From Pseudomonadota bacterium (lineage in GTDB: Bacteria; Pseudomonadota; Gammaproteobacteria; Acidiferrobacterales; Acidiferrobacteraceae): DNA of 64,000 nucleotides. The stretch lies in assembly GCA_021819245.1 (NCBI GenBank), contig JAKARI010000009.1, positions 1-64,000 of the forward strand, written 5' to 3'. Under the pieces are notes generated by a model. The model saw only the letters and a program-made list of their open reading frames with translations, was not told where the DNA came from and made no database searches. Made by a program: the position numbers and the translations under genes. How positions within the stretch are numbered: position 1 is the stretch's first letter; every line of letters starts with the position of its first letter. Below are positions 2,202-13,052 of this stretch, in pieces.

Positions 2202-3338
2202 TCAGTCCAGCCGTTTCTGAAAGGCTCGGGCGGCAAGCCAGATGACGATCACGGCATAAATGAGAAGCCCGAGGGAGGGCGCCCATAGGTCGGCAAGGCC
2301 GCTGCCTTTAAGGAAAATCGCGCGCAAAATCGTCACGTAGTAGCGGGGATAGACGATGAACGTCAAGGCCCGGATAGGCGCCGGCATTTGATCAATCGGA
2401 AAGGTATAGCCGGACAGCAAGGTGGTCGGCAGCAGGGTGATAAGCAATGCCACCTGGCTTGCCCCAAGCTGGCTGCGGATGCGCACGGAGATAAGGTAAC
2501 CGATGTCGAGGACGACGAGTATAAAAAGGGCGGTTGTGACAAACAGCGTCATGATACTCCCCCGAAAGGGGACCTTGAACCACCATGCGGCTGCCGCAAG
2601 GCAAAAGACCGCGTCGACGAGGCCGACGACAAAATAGGGAATGAGCTTGCCCAGCATGACCTCGAGCGCCGTCACGGGCGTCGAAATCAACTGCTCCATC
2701 GTGCCGCGCTCCCATTCCCGCGCAATCGTGAGGGATGTCAGCTGCGCGCCAACGAGCGCCAATATGACGGCTACCACACCCGGAATAATGAAGTTTCGGC
2801 TGTCTAAAGTTTCGTTGAACCAGGTGCTCTGGACGAGGTCGACCTGCCCGATCTGAGACGGTTGTATGCCATGCGCCGCCGCCCATTGCGCATCTATGCC
2901 GGCGTTGATCTCTCCTATGGCGCCCTGAAGGTAGCCGATGGCGATGTTGGTCGTATTGACGTCTGTGGCGTCGAGAATGGCCTGTACCGGGGCGGACCCG
3001 GTGGATGCGAGCCGGCGTGAGAAGTTGGCGGGGATCACGATGGCGGCGATGCAGTCCCCGCGATCCATCGCATGCCGGATGCCGACTTGGCGAGTGAGTG
3101 TACGACTGATGGAAAACCAGCCCGAGGAGACGATGTCCCCGATGATGCCGCGGGTCTGCTGGTTATTTTCCTGGTCATAGACACACACCGGCACGTGCTT
3201 GATGTCGAGGCTTACACCATACCCAAGCAAGGTCATCTGCATGAGCGGCATCAAAAGGGCAATGGCGAGGCTACGCGGATCCCGCCAGATCTGGAGCGTC
3301 TCCTTGTAGGCCAGGGCGAAGATGCGTCGTATGTTCAT
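2202..3338 (-). CDS. ABC-2 type transporter permease (YbhS/YhhJ-like)
   Basis: 378-residue permease, the fourth gene of the exporter operon. It begins MNIRRIFALAYKETLQIWRD, with an N-terminal membrane helix (SLAIALLMPLMQMTLLGYG), a periplasmic domain at about residues 45-175 and five or more C-terminal membrane helices. The EWERGTMEQLISTPV segment is the family's coupling-helix signature. Its ATG overlaps the stop of the upstream ATPase by 4 bases, so translation is coupled. It is paralogous to the following permease. Drug or solvent-type efflux is plausible from YbhFSR and YhhJ relatives, but the substrate cannot be read from the sequence. Confidence 0.88.
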   Translation of the reverse strand: MNIRRIFALAYKETLQIWRDPRSLAIALLMPLMQMTLLGYGVSLDIKHVPVCVYDQENNQQTRGIIGDIVSSGWFSISRTLTRQVGIRHAMDRGDCIAAIVIPANFSRRLASTGSAPVQAILDATDVNTTNIAIGYLQGAIGEINAGIDAQWAAAHGIQPSQIGQVDLVQSTWFNETLDSRNFIIPGVVAVILALVGAQLTSLTIAREWERGTMEQLISTPVTALEVMLGKLIPYFVVGLVDAVFCLAAAAWWFKVPFRGSIMTLFVTTALFILVVLDIGYLISVRIRSQLGASQVALLITLLPTTLLSGYTFPIDQMPAPIRALTFIVYPRYYVTILRAIFLKGSGLADLWAPSLGLLIYAVIVIWLAARAFQKRLD

Positions 3339-4288
3339 GGGGCGCCCTGCTCCCCGTGGTGGCCAGAGACCATCTGGACAAAGACGTCCTCGAGGCTCGG
3401 CGCGACCGTGCGCATGGCCTGCACGCTGATCCCATGGTCCTGAAGAAACCCCGGGAGGGTGGTGCTATCAAGACCGCCAGGAACCAATACCACATGCAGT
3501 TTGTCTCCGAATATTGCCGCGTCGATCACCCCGGGTGCATCCTTGAGGGCCTGACCCGCGGCCCCAAGCGGTGTGCAGCTGATCTCGAAAAGATCGCCGC
3601 CCAGATGCCGGCTGCGTAATTGGCCGGGGGTGCCCATGGCGACCAGTCGGCCACGGTCGATCAAGGCAATGCGATTGCAGTATTCGGCCTCATCCATGTA
3701 GTGGGTGGATACCAGGATGGTGACGCCGCCTGCCGCCAGGTCATGGATCAGGTCCCAGAATCGCCGCCGGGCCTCCGGTTCGACGCCCGAGGTGGGCTCA
3801 TCGAGAAACAGGATCGGTGGCCTGTGGAGGATGGCGCATCCCAGTGCCAGGCGCTGTTTCCAGCCCCCGGCAAGCGTGCGCACCAGGGCATCTTCACGCC
3901 CCTGCAACCCGGCCATGGTGATGGCAAAACGTGTCCGCTCCTCCATATCACTGCGGGCAACCCGGTAAATGCCGCCGAAGAAACGCAGATTCTCGCGGAC
4001 TGTCAGATCGCCGTAGAGAGAGAATTTCTGCGACATGTAGCCGATGTGCTCGCGCACGGCCTCCGGTTGTTGGCCGACATCAAAGCCCGCCACAAGCGCA
4101 TGGCCCTCGCTTGGGCGCAAAAGCCCGCACAGCATGCGGATGGTGGTGGACTTACCGGCCCCGTTGGGACCGATGAAACCCGCGATTTCGCCCTTCTCGA
4201 TGCGCAGATCAAGATGATCCACGGCCGTAAAGGTCTGGAATCGTTTCGTCAGACCTTCGGCGATGATGGCAGGCGCCGCCGCGTTCAT
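3335..4288 (-). CDS. ABC transporter ATP-binding protein (second ATPase of the operon)
   Basis: 317-residue cytoplasmic ATPase. It shows Walker A (GPNGAGKST), a signature motif that reads LAGGWKQRL in place of the usual LSGGQ/M, Walker B (ILFLDEPTSGVE) and a switch histidine (STHYMDE). The C-terminal extension of about 90 residues is typical of multidrug-type (CcmA-like) ATPases. It overlaps both neighbours by 4 bases. In E. coli the corresponding subunit YbhF carries two ATPase domains in one chain; here they are two separate genes. Confidence 0.9.
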   Translation of the reverse strand: MNAAAPAIIAEGLTKRFQTFTAVDHLDLRIEKGEIAGFIGPNGAGKSTTIRMLCGLLRPSEGHALVAGFDVGQQPEAVREHIGYMSQKFSLYGDLTVRENLRFFGGIYRVARSDMEERTRFAITMAGLQGREDALVRTLAGGWKQRLALGCAILHRPPILFLDEPTSGVEPEARRRFWDLIHDLAAGGVTILVSTHYMDEAEYCNRIALIDRGRLVAMGTPGQLRSRHLGGDLFEISCTPLGAAGQALKDAPGVIDAAIFGDKLHVVLVPGGLDSTTLPGFLQDHGISVQAMRTVAPSLEDVFVQMVSGHHGEQGAP

Positions 4289-5229
4289 AGCGGTGTCTGT
4301 GCTCCGACCAAGGCTACGAAGACGTCCTCGATGCCAGGCTCGGCAGGGGTAATAACGGCATCGGCGACCCCTTGCGCGGCTAGCAGGGTTGTGAGTTCCG
4401 GGATGCGCCGGCTGGGGTCATCGACCCGAACGTGAACCCTATCGCCCATGAGCAGCACGCCCAATACCCCGGGTCTGTCGGCGATGAGCGCGCGCAAGGC
4501 GCGTGGATCTTGCGAGGTGATGGCAAGCAGGGCGCCCGGCATCGCCTGCTTCAGGCGTTCGGGCGTGTCGCAGTGGCGTATCTCGCCTGCATGTAACAGC
4601 GCCAAGCGCGAACAGCGCTCGGCCTCATCCATATAAGCCGTGGAGAGCACGATGGTGACACCGCTTTCGCGCAGATTGTAGAGGATCGCCCAGAAATCGC
4701 GGCGGGAGACGGGGTCGACCCCCGTGGTGGGTTCGTCTAGCAATAGGATGCGCGGGGTGTGGATCAGCGCGCACACAAGGCCGAGCTTCTGCTTCATTCC
4801 ACCCGACAGTTGACCCGCGAGGCGGCTCTGAAAGGGCTGCAACCCGGCCGCCGCCAACAGCTCCTTGCTGCGTGCAAGGCGGTCCTTGCGCGATACGCTA
4901 AAAAGCTCGCCATAAAAAAACAGGTTTTCCTTGACGGTCAGGTCTTCATAAAGGCCGAAGCGCTGGGGCATGTAGCTTACATGACGCTTGGCCACCTCGG
5001 CATCGCGAACGACATCGACACCATCGACGGAAATGACGCCGGAATCCGGTGCCAGGATACCTGCCAGCATGCGCATAATGGTCGTCTTACCGGCCCCATC
5101 CGGGCCGACAAGCCCGAATATCTCGCCCTGCAGGATGGCCATGTCGACCTTGTTGATCGCAAGTACCCCGCCGAAGCTGCGGGACACCCCCTGTGTGCGG
5201 ATGGTAATCTCTGGTGCAGTGGCGCTCAT
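4285..5229 (-). CDS. ABC transporter ATP-binding protein (first ATPase of the operon)
   Basis: 314-residue ATPase with Walker A (GPDGAGKTT), a canonical signature (LSGGMKQKL), Walker B ([12 protein letters not shown]) and the H-loop position occupied by A (STAYMDE, where STHYMDE is usual). The missing H-loop histidine suggests that this site is catalytically degenerate and that the pair is asymmetric. The partner ATPase shows the complementary pattern: intact H-loop, altered LAGG signature. It overlaps the MFP gene stop by 4 bases and the next ATPase by 4 bases. Drug-efflux ATPase family; substrate unknown. Confidence 0.9.
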   Translation of the reverse strand: MSATAPEITIRTQGVSRSFGGVLAINKVDMAILQGEIFGLVGPDGAGKTTIMRMLAGILAPDSGVISVDGVDVVRDAEVAKRHVSYMPQRFGLYEDLTVKENLFFYGELFSVSRKDRLARSKELLAAAGLQPFQSRLAGQLSGGMKQKLGLVCALIHTPRILLLDEPTTGVDPVSRRDFWAILYNLRESGVTIVLSTAYMDEAERCSRLALLHAGEIRHCDTPERLKQAMPGALLAITSQDPRALRALIADRPGVLGVLLMGDRVHVRVDDPSRRIPELTTLLAAQGVADAVITPAEPGIEDVFVALVGAQTPL

Positions 5230-6221
5230 GGGCCGGCTGGCAACAGCCTGATCGTGGCATCGGCCGGCATGCCGGGGAGCAGCTCATGCGTGGGATTTTT
5301 GATATCGATGCGAATGCGGTAGACAAGCGTGACTCGCTCGGCATGGGTCTCTACGGTCTTAGGCGTAAATTCCGCCTGTGGCGAGATAAAGGCGATGCGG
5401 CCGGGATACTTCTTGCCCGGGTAGGTGTCGGTGGTGACGGTGACGGGTTCATCGAATCGGATCGCGCCCAGGTTTCGTTCATTGACATAGGCGCGTAGCC
5501 ACACATGGTTTAAGTCATCGAGCGTAAAGATGGCCACTCCGGGAGCTGCCAGTTCACCCAGTTCCGCCTCGCGCACAGCCAATACGCCGCTAAACGGGGC
5601 GCGCAGCGTGGTATAGGAGAGGGTTACGCGATCGAGGTCTACTCTCGCCTTTGCCGCCGCAAAGGCGGCCTGCGCCAGGGCAACGCTTTGTTTTTCGACG
5701 CGCAAAAGAGCCTCATCTCGCCCAAGCGTTGCAGTGGCTTGTGCGGCGGTGGTATAGGCCTCGTCATAGGCCTGTTGCGAGACCGCGCCAACTTTTATGA
5801 GGCGCGCAGCCCGGATATAATTGCTGTGGGTCAGTGCCACATTCAGCTGGTCGCTTACCACCGTCTTTTGGGCGGCGACGAAGTTGCTTTGATTGACTAG
5901 TATTTGGTTGCGGGCGACGTCCATGTTGCCGCGGTCTATCTGCAACTGCCGAATATAGAGGCGCGGATCAACCCGGGCCAGGACCGTGCCAGCCTTGACA
6001 AATCGGCCTTCGTCAAATGGGAGATAAATAATGGGCGCCTGCACATCGGCAAAGCTCAGTACGCTTTGATGGGCCTCGATGTTACCAGACACCTTAATGG
6101 TGCGAATACCGGCCGGGGGACCGAACACAAACCGGCGAACGAATGGCGTAAGCCATAGGCCATAGGCTAAAACCAGTGTACCGATCGCAATTAGGGCAAT
6201 GTGCAGGCGCGATAATTTCAT
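5226..6221 (-). CDS. HlyD-family membrane fusion protein (YbhG-like), first gene of exporter operon
   Basis: Periplasmic adaptor of the ABC exporter, 331 residues from the chosen ATG at 6221. An upstream in-frame ATG at 6371 adds 50 residues without a signal and is less likely. An N-terminal membrane anchor (HIALIAIGTLVLAYGLWL, near residues 7-24) is followed by a biotinyl-lipoyl half-motif, a helical hairpin of about 100 residues rich in Q, A and R, the second lipoyl half (YTTLRAPFSGVLAVREAELGE), and a beta-barrel domain (WLRAYVNERNLG). No outer-membrane TolC-type gene is nearby, so the system probably borrows one. It heads a five-gene operon with overlapping starts. Confidence 0.88.
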   Translation of the reverse strand: MKLSRLHIALIAIGTLVLAYGLWLTPFVRRFVFGPPAGIRTIKVSGNIEAHQSVLSFADVQAPIIYLPFDEGRFVKAGTVLARVDPRLYIRQLQIDRGNMDVARNQILVNQSNFVAAQKTVVSDQLNVALTHSNYIRAARLIKVGAVSQQAYDEAYTTAAQATATLGRDEALLRVEKQSVALAQAAFAAAKARVDLDRVTLSYTTLRAPFSGVLAVREAELGELAAPGVAIFTLDDLNHVWLRAYVNERNLGAIRFDEPVTVTTDTYPGKKYPGRIAFISPQAEFTPKTVETHAERVTLVYRIRIDIKNPTHELLPGMPADATIRLLPAGP

Positions 6222-7151: not shown

Positions 7152-7820
7152 CTAATCGAAGCGCTGCACGATATCCGCAAGCGGCTGGCGGCTCTTCGGG
7201 GGCTGGGGCTCTGTCCGGTAGCCGAAGGCGACCATGCAGCTTATCTGCATCTGCTCGGTATCGACCCCGCACTGTTCGCGCAAAATGGCATTGACGGCAT
7301 CGACCGGGAAGCCCTCTATGGGGCAGCTGTCGATGCCCATTAAGGCAGCGGCCGTCATCATGTTCGCAAGGGCGATGTAGGTCTGGCGGGCCGCCCACTC
7401 AAAGAGCAGCCGGTCGGAGTCAAGGAGATGAAAGTCCGATTCCTGGAAATTCTTGACGAGGGCCTCGCGCCTTTGCAGGTGCGCTTCGGGGAGCCTGTGT
7501 ATGTCGCGCATGATGTGCCAGATGTAGCTCGCGTTGTAGCGCATGCCCTTGGCCGTGCGGGCGAGGAGACATACGAAGTGGCTGGCCGTGGGCAGGGAGC
7601 GCTGCGCACCCCAGGTGACGGCGCGCAGTCTCTCACGCAGGGCCATGTTCTGAATGACGAGAAACCGCCAGGGCTCGAATCCATAGGAGCTCGGGCTTAA
7701 GTGTGCCGACTCGAGAATGGCCTCGAACTGCGGGTCCGGGATGCGGCGACTGGGATCGAATACCTTGCACGCGTGGCGAAATCGCATGGCATCCAGGACC
7801 GTCTTTTCATCGATGCTCAT
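7152..7820 (-). CDS. Nitroreductase family protein, copy 2 (complete)
   Basis: 222-residue NfsB/NfnB-like oxidoreductase. It shows the R-H-A-x-K-x-F-DP N-terminal motif, SPSSYGFEPWRF (FMN contact), AN-x-MTAAALMGIDSCPIEGF (active-site helix and loop) and a C-terminal region ending VAFGYRTE, as in NAD(P)H nitroreductases. It is likely a soluble FMN enzyme reducing nitro compounds or quinones. All but the first roughly 13 codons match copy 1 at 1-656 base for base. It lies upstream of the ABC exporter on the same strand, about 930 bases away, so transcription is probably independent. Confidence 0.92.
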   Translation of the reverse strand: MSIDEKTVLDAMRFRHACKVFDPSRRIPDPQFEAILESAHLSPSSYGFEPWRFLVIQNMALRERLRAVTWGAQRSLPTASHFVCLLARTAKGMRYNASYIWHIMRDIHRLPEAHLQRREALVKNFQESDFHLLDSDRLLFEWAARQTYIALANMMTAAALMGIDSCPIEGFPVDAVNAILREQCGVDTEQMQISCMVAFGYRTEPQPPKSRQPLADIVQRFD

Positions 7821-7839: not shown

Positions 7840-8410
7840 GATTGTGGGTGCCCGAGGGGGCACGATGCCAGTTCAGTTGCTATGTTAACCTCTTAGGTGA
7901 CGGCAACAAAGTACCGACGACCTCGATGGCTCGCCGTTTTCGCAGGGGGTCAGGGGTGAGATCGGTCTTTGTTGGCGCATTGGGCGTTTTTACGAGACGC
8001 GGCAGTCGTTCGGGGCACGCGACCCGGGGGATAAGGGTCAGGCTTGCGCATAGTGAAGACAGGTGATGCGGGGGGAGAACGTGCGTACAAGGAAAGGGAA
8101 GGATGAGGCGCTCCTACTTTTTTGAGCGAGTCGCCCAAGACGATATTTGAGCCAGAGGCAGATCGCGATGCCCTTATTTTCGCGAAGATCAATACGAAGG
8201 CATCTTTGGCAGGCAAGGATGCCCCCATGCAGCGCACCGGCACAGAAGGGACAGAAGGTCCGGAGCGGTGTCATGAGATGGCCCCCGGTGTCCGTGCCTT
8301 GAGCCTACGCGGGAAAGGTGGGGGGTGCCCCTATGTCCTTTGTCAAGCGCCAGCAGGAGGTGCGGCATAATAAAACGGAAGTATGTACTTGACGAAAGGG
8401 CCTTAACGGC
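7821..8410. other. Intergenic region
   Basis: 590 bases with no supported gene. It separates the duplicated nitroreductase from the accessory patch. I see no tRNA, repeat array or recognisable protein fragment. Confidence 0.5.
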
Positions 8411-8784
8411 ATGCATCCCCAAACGTGGGTAAAGGTTAATGCGCATGTCGATGAGGGGGTAGCGCCCATTGTGGCGGCCTTGGCTCGTTTTCCCAAATTG
8501 CGAACCATTGAAAGCTGCGAAGGCAATCCCGAGAGGGGTGCATGGGTCTGTTTTGACTATGGCGAGGATGGCCCCGAATCTTGGCGGGATCTTGCGGAAT
8601 TTGTCTTAGATTTTTCGGTCCTAGACTCGGCGCGCAAATCGGGGACGTGGCAACTGTCTCAATTACAGTCGCCTCCTATGGAAGATCGCAGGCCGAACTT
8701 TCGGTCAGACCGCTGGCAATTTCTCAGACAGCTTCAGCCATCCAGAAAATTGTGCGCGATTTTTCTCATCGCGGAGCGCCGTAA
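8411..8784 (+). pseudogene. Conserved hypothetical protein, split by a single-base frameshift
   Basis: The first frame starts MHPQTWVKVNAHVDEGVAPI and reads sensibly to about base 8608 (ESCEGNPERGAWVCFDYG, WRDLAEFVL). The protein then continues in the neighbouring frame as FFGPRLGAQIGDVATVSITV to the stop at 8784. Joined, they give a protein of about 124 residues. The switch falls at a run of five Ts (near 8611-8615), and one extra T would restore the frame. I recall similar small proteins of unknown function in mobile regions, but cannot name a family. It could be a real mutation, a sequencing error in the T run, or programmed slippage. Confidence 0.65.
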
Positions 8785-9100
8785 GTTCTCGTGTTTTTGT
8801 GGCAGGTGGCACACAAGGCTAAAAGGTTACCCAAACCGTCGCCCCCATTTCGGTCCTTATGGTGCGCGTCCCAATATCCCTGGCTTAGGCCTCGGGTGCA
8901 TCACCCGCTGTGGCCACACGTTGTCATCGTGCATTCGCATCGGCCCCCAGCCCTAGTGTATAGCGCCTTCTTCGTTGATTCCGAGATTGCCATGGCCCCT
9001 TCCTTAGTTGTCCTTTGGCGTCCTCAGTATGCGCCGAAGGGGCAAAAATGCCTACACAGGACTAATGTGATACTGAACAAAAGGCCTTTCCTCAAGTATT
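8785..9100. other. Intergenic region upstream of the IS1595-family transposase
   Basis: 316 bases with no supported gene. It should contain the left end of the insertion sequence. I could not identify a terminal inverted repeat with confidence. A short hairpin (GGCAAAAATGCC) lies near 9041-9052. Confidence 0.4.
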
Positions 9101-10075
9101 ATGATTAATATTACAACCAAGATCCAAAATCGCTCTACGAAAAACGACCCGATTATCCGGGCATTGCCAGCGGCATGTGCCGACGAGAAAACGGCGGTGG
9201 AATTTGGTGAGCGTATGCGGTGGGGCGGTCATCCCGCCTGCCCCCATTGTGGCGATACGGACGTCTACCAGATGATGAATGTGGACAACACGGCCCGTCA
9301 GGCCAACTATCGCTGGCGCTGTCGGGAGTGCAAAGCGCAGTTCACGGTTCGGATTGGGAGCGTTTTTGAGGATAGCCGGATTGAGCTACGTCATTGGTGC
9401 TTTGCCTTTTGGCGCGCCAGTACGTCCAAGAAGGGAGTAAGCGCCCTTGAGATCCACCGCCAGACAGGTGTTTCTTACAAGTCGGCGCTGTTCATGTTGC
9501 ACCGCATACGGTATGCAATGTCCGAATCTGCGCCTGTGATGCTCGGCCAGGATTGCGGGGACGTTGAAGTTGATGAGACTTACGTCGGAGGCAAGCCGCG
9601 TTATCGTGGGACCTCGAAACGCGGTCGGGGCACCAAGAAACAATGTGTTCTTGCCCTGGTGGAGCGGAACGGTAGCGTCAAGACCAAACCAATCGCTAAT
9701 GTGTCGGCCAAGACCCTGCAAACGGCCATTCGCCAGAATGTGAATGGCTCTGCGCGGATAGTTACCGATGAGAATAGCGCGTACACGGGCATCGGGAAAC
9801 ACTATGCACGCGGGCACCAAACTGTCTGTCACAGCACTCGTGAGTATGTTCGAGGCGATGCCTACAGCAACACGGTCGAATCGTTCTTTGCTACCGTTAA
9901 GCGCGGCATAAATGGCATCTACCACTCCGTAAGCAAAGAACATTTGTCCCTCTATCTCTCTGAATACGAATTACGGCATAACAATCGGAACTTGGAAGAC
10001 GGAGAGAGAACTGCTGCAGCGATTCGCAAGGCGCAAGGACAGAGGCTGCTTTATAAGCAACCAGTGACACGGTGA
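9101..10075 (+). CDS. IS1595-family (ISXO2-like) transposase
   Basis: 324-residue transposase that looks intact. An N-terminal zinc ribbon uses C47 and C50 (CPHC) and C74 and C77 (CREC). The ISXO2-like DDE/DDN domain has D158 (VEVDETYVGG), D223 (VTDENSAY) and N257/E260 (SNTVESFFATVKRG). A helix-turn-helix-like segment (GVSALEIHRQTGVSYKSALFM) lies near residues 112-132. Length and domain order are normal for the family. The surrounding bases look less GC-rich than the housekeeping regions, consistent with acquired DNA. Element ends were not resolved. Confidence 0.93.
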   Translation: MINITTKIQNRSTKNDPIIRALPAACADEKTAVEFGERMRWGGHPACPHCGDTDVYQMMNVDNTARQANYRWRCRECKAQFTVRIGSVFEDSRIELRHWCFAFWRASTSKKGVSALEIHRQTGVSYKSALFMLHRIRYAMSESAPVMLGQDCGDVEVDETYVGGKPRYRGTSKRGRGTKKQCVLALVERNGSVKTKPIANVSAKTLQTAIRQNVNGSARIVTDENSAYTGIGKHYARGHQTVCHSTREYVRGDAYSNTVESFFATVKRGINGIYHSVSKEHLSLYLSEYELRHNNRNLEDGERTAAAIRKAQGQRLLYKQPVTR

Positions 10076-10095
10076 ACATGAACTGCTATAATAGC

Positions 10096-10183
10096 TGCCG
10101 GTGGTGGGGGTCGAACCCACACGGGCCACTTGGGGTCCACACAATTCCAAATTGTGTCCGTCTGCCAATTTCGGCACACCGGC
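10096..10183 (-). tRNA. Class II tRNA (leucine-type body) with UGG anticodon
   Basis: 88-base cloverleaf on the minus strand. The 7-bp acceptor is perfect (GCCGGTG with CACCGGC) and the discriminator is A. T8 is present. The D arm CCG-AAATTGGCAGA-CGG matches the leucine tRNA pattern. The anticodon stem CACAA/TTGTG encloses the loop TTTGGAA, giving anticodon TGG. A 19-base variable arm can form a short stem. The T arm is GTGGG-TTCGACC-CCCAC. No CCA is encoded. The long variable arm, D-loop and A73 say leucine, whereas the anticodon reads proline CCN codons. It may be a mistranslating tRNA, a decayed island-borne copy or an unusual isoacceptor. Confidence 0.8.
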
Positions 10184-10199
10184 TATATAGAGCTACCTC

Positions 10200-10253
10200 G
10201 GCCCCATCAAGCTCGTCCCGCTAAGACACAGGCTTGATGGGGCCTGTCTTTTT
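10200..10253 (+). terminator. Strong rho-independent terminator
   Basis: A perfect 13-bp inverted repeat (GGCCCCATCAAGC at 10200-10212, GCTTGATGGGGCC at 10232-10244) has a 19-base loop and is followed by TCTTTTT at 10247-10253 on the plus strand. It could stop transcripts leaving the transposase gene. It sits just upstream of the minus-strand tRNA. Confidence 0.75.
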
Positions 10254-10325
10254 CGCTCCCAGCAACGGTAGTTTGCTGCATGCTTGCTGAGAGTCTAGTC
10301 CCTCCTCATTGCGAATCCTCCGGGT

Positions 10326-11036
10326 TTATTGGTCACTGACGCCAAAATAGGCGTCCAGCATTTTTCTTACGATTAACCAGTCTCCCTGGTCCATCTCAGA
10401 CGGGAAAATGATGAGGCCGTGTCCCTTACCCCTAATCGGGAACCGGAACTTCTCCATATCTGCCGCAACATCTGCCTCATCATCAACGGCTTCGTGTGGC
10501 TCGTTGTATGTCTCATCTTTGCGGCTTCGCTTCTTTTTTGTTGTCTTCTTGCCGTTTTGCGGTCGCTGCGGGAACTTTCTTGCGCCAAAGTGAGGCGAAT
10601 AAGCGACCTGGGCCTCCCCCAGTGCCGCGAGGAAAAAGCGCGTGGCTTTGTCCAGCATTTGTCCATCTACGTTTCCGTGGCGCCGAAAGGCGTTATCGAG
10701 CTGTTGGTCTGTCCCCACAGGAAGATTTACGTCATTGATGATGTCGGCGTATGCTGAAAAAATTACATCCTTAAGGGCGGCCGTCCAACCTTCAGTTTGG
10801 TACGATTCCACGAGCCGTTTTAGCGCTTCGCTAACCTCGCCGTTCATACTAATTAGGCCGAGGAAACGAAGTGCGGACATAATCTGGCTTCGTATTGACC
10901 CGGACATGCTGTGGAGTACACTAGAATCTATGACCGGAGGGACGGCGGTGCTGTGCAGGCGCTCCACTAGGCCCCTTAAGGTCTTAAAGGGAACATACGG
11001 CGCTACGACCTTGATTTCATTGTCTGTTTCAGACAT
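10326..11036 (-). CDS. DUF5343-like hypothetical protein
   Basis: 236 residues, probably cytoplasmic. The N-terminal part contains PYVPFKTLRGLVERL, then DSSVLHSMSGSIRSQIMSAL and RFLGLISMNGEV, which is the pattern I associate with DUF5343 proteins of mobile and accessory regions. The middle is a basic low-complexity linker (NGKKTTKKKRSRKDE) and the C-terminus returns to a folded-looking segment (GLIIFPSEMDQGDWLIVRKML). The role is unknown; similar proteins occur in variable islands. The family call comes from recollection of the motif and should be checked by profile search. Confidence 0.65.
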   Translation of the reverse strand: MSETDNEIKVVAPYVPFKTLRGLVERLHSTAVPPVIDSSVLHSMSGSIRSQIMSALRFLGLISMNGEVSEALKRLVESYQTEGWTAALKDVIFSAYADIINDVNLPVGTDQQLDNAFRRHGNVDGQMLDKATRFFLAALGEAQVAYSPHFGARKFPQRPQNGKKTTKKKRSRKDETYNEPHEAVDDEADVAADMEKFRFPIRGKGHGLIIFPSEMDQGDWLIVRKMLDAYFGVSDQ

Positions 11037-11184
11037 TTCGTTTTCCCTTCCGGAGGGATTAGGCTATTGGAGTACATTATGCAACAGGACAGATTGTGAG
11101 TCAACAGTATTTGTTTGTCCTCCTGTAAAACAATTCGTAACGGACATAATTAGGGCCTTTGGCGACGAACCAGTTAGGCTTCGG

Positions 11185-11382
11185 GTGTTAGGGGTCCAGG
11201 GACGTGTAATTGAAGTCTTCAATGAGGATCCAGGGCTTGCTTTGGGCGTGTCGCCGGTCTTGGTTTATGAAGATGATGACGGTGTCTACGCTGAATTGAG
11301 GGAGGCGTATAATAAAGGGGACACGAAACGCCTGACCAAATTATGGAGCGAGGCGCCCCACTTTGATCTCCCGAGGCCGTAA
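11185..11382 (+). CDS. Small hypothetical ORF, 5' end unclear
   Basis: The frame encodes an acidic-looking segment (RVLGVQGRVIEVFN, VSPVLVYEDDDGVYAELREA) ending at 11382. It stays open upstream to before 11041 but offers no ATG, GTG or TTG between there and the GTG at 11185, so the gene may have lost its 5' end. The coding-like part seems to begin near 11100. No function assigned. It overlaps the next small ORF by 20 bases. Confidence 0.35.
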   Translation: MLGVQGRVIEVFNEDPGLALGVSPVLVYEDDDGVYAELREAYNKGDTKRLTKLWSEAPHFDLPRP

Positions 11383-11527
11383 ATCAAAAAAGACTGGCCC
11401 GAAACCAGACACCCTCAAACTGAAGGGGGACTGGAAGTCTTTGGTGGGAGACGCGCTAAAGAAGCGGCGCCCACCGGAGGGCTGGCCGGACCCAGAAAAG
11501 AAACCGAGAAAGAAGAAGGGCCGCTGA
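11363..11527 (+). CDS. Small basic hypothetical protein
   Basis: A 54-residue frame from a TTG at 11363. The product is lysine- and proline-rich (RGRKSKKTGPKPDTLKLKGD, KKRRPPEGWPDPEKK). The TGPKPDTLK-x-x-GDW pattern resembles small proteins I recall from mobile regions, but I cannot assign a function. The TTG start is a guess; it overlaps the upstream ORF and would imply translational coupling. Confidence 0.45.
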   Translation: MISRGRKSKKTGPKPDTLKLKGDWKSLVGDALKKRRPPEGWPDPEKKPRKKKGR

Positions 11528-11552
11528 CCTATCCGGAAGACGGCCTAGTCGG

Positions 11553-12745
11553 TTACAACCGAGGTTTCGTCAAGTACATACTTCCATAATAAAAAGCCCC
11601 ATCGCGCAGCATCGCAAAGAGCACATCGCTGCGTCTGCGGGCGAGTGCAATAAGCGCCTGATTGTGCCGCTTGCCCTGGCGGATCTTGCGGTCGTAGTAG
11701 GCCCGGGAGATGGGGTCGCGCAATGCCGCGAAGGCCGACAGGAACATCGTCCGCTTCAGGATCTTGTTTCCCCGCCGGGAGGGATGCTCGCCGCGGATGG
11801 AGCTGCCGGAGCGGCGGGTGACCGGGGCAAGGCCCGCGTAGGCGGCAAGATGGGCCGCCGAGGCGAAGGGTAGGAGCTTGGCTGCGGTCCTGATGCCGAC
11901 TCCGGGCATACTCCGGTCCCGGGGCAAGAGGGTGCTGCCCAACCCGCTGCTCGACCTCTTGGGCGAGTTCCTCGCGCTGATGGCGCAAGGCGGCGAGTTG
12001 GGCGCCAAGTCTTGGCAGCACAAGGCCTACAGCCTTCGTGCTGGGCACCACCACCGTCTGTTCCGAAAGCGCCCGGTGGATTTCGGCGGCCAGTCGTTGG
12101 GCGAGCCGCGGCGCGAGCTTGTCGAGGAAGGCCAAAAGCCGCCTCTCGCTCACAGCAGACAGCGCCGCAGGCGTCGGATATTTCTGCAGCAAGGCGCATA
12201 CCGCGGGGTGATCGAGCTTAGGCCCCAGCACGCGCTCCAGGGCTGGATGGATCTGTGTCAGCAGCCCGCGGATGCGGTTTCACTCAGGTGATTTGCCCGG
12301 CCAGGTCATCATCAAACCCGCACAAGAGAGTCAATTCCGCCAGGGCCTCATCGGTCTTAGGCAACGCCCGCAAGGCATGCGGCATGGAGCGCGCGGCCTC
12401 GGCGATAATGGCCGCATCCCGGGCATCGGTCTTGGCCTCACCGGCATGGAGATCGGCGATGCGGCGCATGGCCAATCCCGGCAAATAGGCGACCTCAAGG
12501 CCTTCTGCGCGCGCTACCGTGACCGGCAGGGCGCCTATCGTGGCGGGCTGATCGACAACGAGCAAGAGCGTGCCGTGTATGGAGAGTCCGGCGATCAGCG
12601 TTCGCAGCTTCTCTTCATCATTTGGCAACGCCTTATCCAGCAACCGCTTGCCCGATCGATCCAGGGCTACGGCATGGTGCGACCCCTTTCCCACATCCAC
12701 GCCGATAAAGATACCTACACTGTCAGGGCCTTCATGGTCTGTCAT
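11553..12745 (-). pseudogene. IS110-family transposase, broken by two frameshifts
   Basis: Three consecutive frames add up to one transposase. Part 1 (12745 to about 12290) is the DEDD RuvC-like domain (IFIGVDVGKGSHHAVAL, AKTDARDAAIIAEA). Part 2 (about 12280 to 11950) is the coiled middle (RGLLTQIHPALERVLGPK). Part 3 (about 11930 to 11553) is the serine-containing C-terminal domain (SMPGVGIRTAAKLLPF, AYAGLAPVTRRSGSS, LKRTMFLSAFAALRDP). Frame changes lie near 12285 and near 11925. No single intact reading frame remains, so it should be inactive unless complemented. Confidence 0.88.
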
Positions 12746-13052
12746 ACCCACCTCCCGTATCGCGATGGTGCCTACGGCCAATGACCATGGCAGAAAGTCT
12801 CGGCATCCACGTTACAGGCGGCCTTGAGATACACTGGGCCGAGCCCCTATCAGCGATGACTTACTGCCTGCCCGAGCCCTCCGACAACACCCCCCGGATC
12901 ATGGTTGACTGGGGGTAGCAATCATGCCGGGCCGGACTGGCCGTACCTCTATTGTAGAGGCGGGAACATAGTAACGGGGTCGCCGCGGGCGCAGGACTGT
13001 CGCAAAAGGATAAGGCGGGTTGGCTAGGGTATGTGCGAAGCGCTGGGTTTTT
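12746..13052. other. Non-coding left end of the IS110 element and flank
   Basis: 307 bases between the transposase start and tRNA-Ala. In IS110-group elements this transposase-upstream end encodes the bridge RNA. I see G/C-rich repeats around 12890-12920 but cannot define the RNA or the element boundary. Confidence 0.35.

Follow-up and report, generated by a model that had tools for sequence, protein, structure and literature searches.

A leucine-type tRNA with a proline anticodon carried by an IS1595-type transposon, and its possible coupling to decoding of the transposase

Introduction

Passenger genes are known in the IS1595 family of insertion sequences, phages and integrative elements carry tRNA genes, and in IS110 (bridge RNA) and IS10 (antisense control) a small RNA is encoded beside the transposase, neither of these systems being known to involve a tRNA. 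Here we describe an IS1595-type transposon in a gammaproteobacterial contig (Acidiferrobacteraceae; JAKARI010000009.1), at positions 8376–11586 of the 64,000-nucleotide stretch analysed (hereafter the window), which encloses a tRNA gene with a leucine-type body and the proline anticodon UGG. It resembles IS110 and IS10 in having a small RNA beside the transposase and differs in that this RNA is a tRNA. With the tRNAs of phages and integrative elements it shares a location on mobile DNA, and the viral examples include leucine tRNAs with the same CCG/CGG D-stem; however, the five viral tRNAs with this D-stem that were called by ARAGORN have leucine anticodons, two of them lying in arrays, whereas here a single tRNA with a changed anticodon lies inside an insertion sequence.

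Two described groups of tRNAs come close in sequence. For the nematode nev-tRNAs, the published account reports a long variable arm, non-leucine anticodons (Gly CCC, Ile UAU) and misacylation with leucine in vitro, with misincorporation not detected in the proteome (PMC4300185). The long variable arm and the non-leucine anticodons recur in the tRNAs described here, whereas the nev-tRNAs are nematode genes and are not described as mobile there (PMC4300185). In Streptomyces and Kitasatospora, tRNA-ProX has a proline body with an Ala, Asn or Thr anticodon and a partner synthetase, ProRSx, and causes mistranslation (PMC10365949). It too is a bacterial tRNA in which body and anticodon disagree; by comparison with the system as presented there, the window tRNA has a leucine body, is borne by a transposon and has no synthetase gene in its element (PMC10365949), the four open reading frames (ORFs) of the window element that were scanned giving no synthetase Pfam match. 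Our literature search returned no tRNA within an insertion sequence, IS1595 included, and no transposon with its own missense tRNA, most subscription papers and all bioRxiv preprints lying outside the search, so that a description elsewhere is possible.

The transposon and its tRNA

The window element, 3,211 bp long and with matching terminal inverted repeats (TIRs), is flanked by copies of the 8-bp target duplication TAATAAAA (8368–8375 and 11587–11594, 8/8 match). The left TIR, with the core GGAAGTATGTACTTGACGAAA, is at 8376–8397 (+) and the right TIR at 11565–11586 (−), the compared core agreeing at 20/20 positions. The transposase (9101–10075, +; 324 amino acids) has a zinc ribbon and a DDE_Tnp_IS1595 domain, with Pfam scores of 126.8 bits for PF12762 (cut-off 27) and 41.2 bits for PF12760 (cut-off 25.4). 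Transposase domain, zinc ribbon, terminal repeats and the 8-bp duplication, the family's characteristic figure, are all those of IS1595. Besides the transposase and the tRNA the element contains a DUF5343-like gene and two small ORFs. The first-pass annotation had given an IS1595 transposase and a DUF5343-like gene as the neighbours of the tRNA on either side, which is correct, all three lying inside one transposon; its description of the tRNA as island-borne was right about the mobile location and too loose about the carrier, an IS1595-type transposon bounded by TIRs and target-site duplications and recurring in relatives.

ARAGORN calls the gene, one of two tRNAs in the window, as tRNA-Pro(tgg) at 10096–10183 on the minus strand, with the anticodon UGG at 10147–10149 (−). 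Against the Rfam tRNA model it scores 49.8 bits (gathering score 29; E 7.2e-10), above the family threshold; a fast Rfam scan of the whole window did not pick it up. The acceptor, D, anticodon and T stems are paired and a single mismatch is predicted in the variable arm, so that the earlier statement that all stems pair holds for these four stems and not for the arm. A class II arm, A73, a leucine-type D-loop and A15–U48 are features of E. coli tRNA-Leu, and the window tRNA has each of them (D-loop AAATTGGCAGA, U48 and A73 as read from the sequence); its anticodon, UGG, is not a leucine anticodon. Bacterial tRNA-Pro, by contrast, has a class I body with C1–G72, whereas the window tRNA is class II with G1–C72. 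The earlier reading of a leucine-type class II body with a proline anticodon is thus borne out by ARAGORN and by the sequence, and the combination of one amino acid's body with another's anticodon is what would be expected of a suppressor tRNA.

The host genome (G000; 2.25 Mb, 54 contigs, 91% complete) gave 38 tRNA matches, the window tRNA included. Because it has ordinary tRNAs for proline (cgg, tgg, ggg) and leucine (caa, tag, taa, gag) alongside, the window gene is an extra one, a second UGG, and not a mutated sole copy. The window gene does not encode CCA, which the listed host tRNAs do (the row for Leu(taa) is incomplete at its 3′ end); two PolyA_pol/CCA-type nucleotidyltransferase genes of the host could provide for its addition. 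A close copy of the window tRNA was found in none of 59 relatives, the plasmid collection gave no match, and matches in phage records were limited to 28–29 bases in two records.

Related transposons in other genomes and viral contigs

Leucine-type tRNAs with non-leucine anticodons were found in related IS1595-type transposons from several phyla (loci are designated L followed by a number), and when neighbours were compared in two collections many leucine-type UGG tRNAs proved to adjoin IS1595-family transposases. Exact 8-bp duplications with terminal repeats were present at 16 of 38 loci tested, the repeats of L263 and L272 being weaker (15/20 and 14/20); the tRNA was placed inside the element by our custom scanner in 14 of these and by the distance of the ARAGORN tRNA in L622 and L658. 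Together with the 2,887-bp element L482 (exact duplication GGAAAATG) and L661, a wider stretch around L317 (exact duplication AAACGTTA), this makes 18 elements, the window's included, with exact 8-bp duplications around the tRNA. No exact duplication was found at the remaining 20 of the 38 loci; L239 has perfect repeats and no duplication, and L419 has 26-nt repeats, 88% complementary, and no clear duplication.

A leucine-type UGG tRNA pattern matched 16 viral-contig loci and 63 genome loci. A tRNA was called by ARAGORN or the custom scanner at 12 and 18 of these respectively, and an IS1595 transposase lay beside 8/12 and 10/18 of the tRNAs so called, the 8 including two near-identical viral contigs (L044 and L046) with a short transposase fragment. 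A control pattern with other non-leucine anticodons, the middle anticodon base not being A, matched 114 stretches; among the 80 matches listed an IS1595 transposase was present at one of the 76 new loci (L128), where the tRNA was called only by the custom scanner, ARAGORN calling a pattern-bearing tRNA of at least 80 nt at 18/76. In the converse search, starting from the transposase, 15 of the best 80 viral loci carried a leucine-type tRNA with a non-leucine anticodon within 3.5 kb, although the query alignment had been built from carriers and four of the 15 lay on contigs that the tRNA pattern had matched before. Genome phyla were sampled at up to 398 genomes each, and viral protein searches comprised the best 80 matches. 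In the window's phylum a strong transposase match was present in 30/398 genomes, the window's included, and two of the 30 loci retrieved (that of the window and L317) have such a tRNA. For the phylum to which L196, an Acidobacteriaceae record, belongs, the transposase matched in 48/347 genomes and such a tRNA was present in 3/29 new loci; three further phyla had the transposase in 14/352, 38/360 and 14/355 genomes. The tRNA counts are lower bounds, since many genome loci have only 1.5 kb of flank and tRNAs farther away were scored as absent. Left out of the carriers were L528 (an ordinary host Ser tRNA), L612 (leucine anticodon), L251 (tRNA array), L634 (77-nt His tRNA) and L270 (74-nt tRNA); tRNAs called by ARAGORN alone (e.g. 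L241, L265) were accepted as leucine-like on a permissive D-loop rule or on visual inspection. The position and orientation of the tRNA relative to the transposase vary among elements, which suggests movement as a module. We regard its status as a component of IS1595-type transposons as close to certain.

The anticodons of the 33 distinct tRNAs found by the scanner, which requires a leucine D-loop and gave no matches in reversed decoys, are UGG (26), UUA (2), UGC (2), GGA (1), CUA (1) and UUC (1); an AGG anticodon (L279/L419) is an ARAGORN call. A73 is present in 33/33 and U48 in 32/33, and the variable region ranges from 13 to 57 nt. Standard pairs, of many types, occupy 651 of 660 stem cells, a figure that is partly by construction, given the scanner's tolerance of a single mismatch in each stem. 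At 1:72, 26 of the tRNAs have G-C, four G-U and three C-G.

A number of neighbouring observations concern these tRNAs and elements. A second tRNA, of class I with anticodon ACC, lies in the same L482 element as the UUA leucine-type tRNA (L482 5095–5168, −), and odd class II tRNAs (CGC, UAU) occur near IS1595 transposases in L052/L239, L278 and L512, those with CGC and that of L278 looking Ser-type by eye. Class II tRNAs with the leucine pattern and an Asn (GTT) anticodon occur on six viral contigs (L082, L092, L098, L101, L107, L126) in which no IS1595 transposase was found. Twelve leucine-type UGG tRNAs, some of them scanner-only calls, have no IS1595 transposase in the available stretch (L043, L048, L056, L057, L174, L195, L204, L205, L207, L213, L214, L216). 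The CUA element (L661, about 2427–6184) lies within repeats that by eye resemble integron cassette (attC) sites, and its duplication AAACGTTA overlaps one of them. Small ORFs next to the tRNA that look coiled-coil by eye and have no Pfam match above cut-off are found in L183 (4698–5087), L201 (5940–6374) and L043 (4424–4858). Passenger genes elsewhere include a Schlafen/AlbA_2 protein with a RecG-C-like ATPase domain (L050, 1300–2748) and a SocA/Panacea antitoxin-like protein (L183, 6887–7477).

Transposase codons and the tRNA anticodon

CCA codons are unevenly distributed over the carrier transposases and three sites stand out, which we term N (motif LPxAC), M (AMxxE-P-L) and C (RLxYxx-P). 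The window transposase has CCA at N (Pro23; 9167–9169, +) and at C (Pro321; 10061–10063, +), the latter being cognate to the element's own anticodon. Near-identical transposases were merged for the codon counts and L239, L221, L181 and L503 were dropped. In 23 distinct UGG carriers CCA accounted for 26 of 29 proline codons at M and C and for 46/234 elsewhere; with 31 UGG carriers and a new alignment the figure at M and C was 27/33, against an expectation of 8.2 and a maximum of 20 in 200,000 within-gene shuffles. At C alone CCA made up 16/18 proline codons in carriers and 6/39 in non-carriers, some non-carrier codon indices seeming shifted in the 302-row alignment (45 proline residues against 39 proline codons at C), possibly by internal stops. 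The commonest C-site residue in non-carriers is leucine (80 of 224 rows with a residue).

Some elements with other anticodons carry other codons at these places. L419, with AGG, has only two CCT codons among its 16 proline codons, and they are located at M and C. Within one small clade M/C reads CCT/CCT in the AGG element, CCA/CCA in the UGG elements, and CCG or CCC followed by TCA in two sisters for which no leucine-type tRNA was found, L501 being short of flank and L278 carrying a UAU tRNA. A stop falls exactly at the C site in 3 of the 172 ORFs with the C-terminal motif: L482 (tRNA UUA, codon TAA), L317 (tRNA CUA, codon TAG) and L263 (a UGG carrier, TAA). The TAG of L317 had been considered as an in-frame internal stop and is in fact the terminal stop, though exactly at the C site. 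The CCA codons of carriers lie in columns less conserved for proline than their other proline codons (p=0.0002; non-carriers p=0.059), and these columns are richer in leucine (mean 0.092 against 0.015–0.034). We had also looked for proline at conserved leucine columns of the transposase, which was not seen in the carriers found by then, except L184.

Given this codon pattern, the earlier suggestion of leucine at proline codons is plausible, the evidence bearing on the transposase and not on the proteome at large, and the best explanation, to which we give a probability of roughly 45%, is a private missense or nonsense suppressor tRNA coupled to the decoding of the element's own transposase. 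On this reading the anticodon of a leucine-type tRNA would have been changed, mostly to UGG, inside IS1595-family transposons. Leucyl-tRNA synthetase (LeuRS) is not known to read the anticodon, and the host enzyme would charge the element tRNA with leucine; the charged tRNA would then decode CCA codons of the transposase mRNA as leucine (CCU, UAG or UAA codons in the case of sister elements), in competition with host tRNA-Pro or release factors, and the form or amount of active transposase would depend on the element's own tRNA. By analogy with the antisense control known in other insertion sequences, a transcript antisense to the tRNA may keep its level low. The full form of the proposal, a private genetic code in which a dedicated leucine tRNA gives one codon (CCA, CCU, UAG or UAA) a new meaning at fixed positions of the transposase, whose form and activity would be locked to and regulated through the tRNA and the antisense RNA, we hold still more tentatively.

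Evidence against coupling and alternative explanations

Several observations count against such coupling. The M, C and N sites were chosen after the alignment had been seen, and the 31 carriers include related ones (e.g. L201, L203). The prediction was then set down before a search whose new loci (81 distinct transposases, a few of which had been met earlier) yielded eight new UGG carriers, in which CCA was found at C in 2/3 with proline there (L623 has CCC) and at the strict M position in 1/2 (L625 has CCG), L621 and L623 having CCA two residues before it; TAA is absent from the C site of L624, a newly found UUA element. The C-site residue is something other than proline in 12 of the 30 UGG carriers in which one is present (e.g. 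L241, L265, L631, L642), and L052 uses CCG. For the UGC, GGA and UUC elements no clear site match was found for GCA, TCC and GAA respectively. A clade in which no leucine-type tRNA was found (L270, L484, L485 and relatives) keeps CCT at the C site (22/35 proline codons), so that codon conservation there can arise otherwise, and N was dropped as a test because CCA is also used there where no tRNA was found (3/5). In tree-aware pairs none went against the link on average, but at most three lay on supported branches, which is too few. The homologues are not leucine-rich at M, and in the predicted structure (mean predicted local distance difference test score, pLDDT, 75.9) M and C lie in segments with pLDDT <50 (residues 143–147, 149–151 and 317–324), which are probably flexible; tolerance of either leucine or proline at M and C is for this reason a real alternative. 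Finally, a sense promoter (at least 9/12 within 100 nt) was found for 0/41 element tRNAs as against 10/33 host tRNAs.

The explanation that survives best after coupling, although we consider it unlikely, is that the tRNA rides along as a passenger, mistranslating CCA codons of the host or creating host dependence on the element, under the control of antisense RNA like a type I toxin-antitoxin system, while the transposase merely avoids CCA at structured prolines and keeps it where leucine or proline is tolerated. The low-confidence segments around M and C and the carriers without proline at C fit this view, as do the signals on the antisense strand, where promoters (at least 9/12) accompany 11/41 element tRNAs and 0/33 host tRNAs, and terminators 22/41 and 1/33. 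Avoidance alone, however, predicts mixed proline codons at tolerant sites and not the 27/33 CCA observed, leaves the CCT codons with AGG and the stops with CUA and UUA unexplained, and sits badly with CCA being commoner, not rarer, in carrier transposases (84/310 proline codons in scored columns against 214/2,166 in non-carriers).

The same strand bias would suit a third possibility, namely that the functional product is the other strand, a structured non-coding RNA of about 150 nt running from a promoter at the tRNA 3′ end to a terminator beyond its 5′ end and used by the transposon, the likeness to a tRNA being a relic of its origin. In the window the putative signals are a sigma-70-type promoter-like site, GTGACA-17-TATAAT, at 10064–10092 (+; 11/12, a consensus match only), which would direct transcription antisense across the tRNA, and a 13-bp hairpin followed by a T run at 10200–10251 (+), terminator-like for the antisense and transposase strand. 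The absence of detected sense promoters is in keeping with this. Yet the stems of the element tRNAs have 21 G-U against 4 A-C pairs on the tRNA strand, which favours that strand as the folded RNA, even if the selection rules for this set admit G-U and restrict mismatches and bias it to that extent. The covariation between anticodon and transposase codon is left unexplained, as are A73, U33 and the T-loop, and we consider this possibility improbable. For the window tRNA itself, transcription may start at the promoter-like site of the upstream passenger gene (11104–11076, −; 10/12), judging from the layout of signals, as no minus-strand terminator was listed between that site and the tRNA.

Less probable again is an ordinary extra reader of proline codons, charged with proline by prolyl-tRNA synthetase (ProRS) and serving as a codon-usage helper. 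G35, G36 and A73 are also ProRS elements, and CCA makes up about 27% of scored proline codons in carriers against 10% in non-carriers at similar GC content of third codon positions (GC3); but a tRNA-Pro-like C-G 1:72 pair occurs in only 3/33 element tRNAs, the body is class II with a leucine D-loop, and the non-proline anticodons and the stop codons are not accounted for. Finally, a decayed tRNA captured by chance and without function, as the missing CCA of the window copy and its absence from 59 relatives might suggest, is very improbable, given that the tRNA recurs with paired stems in intact elements across phyla and that the host's two nucleotidyltransferases could add CCA.

Other features of the element and its surroundings

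The DUF5343-like passenger gene (10326–11036, −) lies upstream of the tRNA on the same strand and scores 19.4 bits, below the curated cut-off of 27; the promoter-like site at 11076–11104 precedes it. It was considered as a partner of the tRNA and rejected, since neither 56 further genomes from the order nor the plasmids gave a homologue and none was confirmed in viral contigs. The two small passenger ORFs, of 181 amino acids (8411–8956, +) and 83 amino acids (11131–11382, +; the end of a longer mechanical ORF), have no Pfam match. Next to the element, which is inserted beside it, an IS110-type transposase lies at 11545–12781 of the window, apparently in pieces, one of which was scanned. Positions 1–300 of the window are repeated exactly and directly at 7165–7464 (spacing 7,164 bp), identical ORFs suggesting a longer extent; as the window begins at the contig start, this may be an assembly overlap.

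Significance

Insertion sequences are the simplest mobile elements, and an anticodon-changed tRNA of their own would, if the coupling is true, be a new way to control transposition. If true, it would provide a natural test case for reassigning codons in one gene alone, since the pairing of anticodon and codon varies among elements and the coupling is directly testable by a double swap; it would also show how missense tRNAs spread between bacteria.
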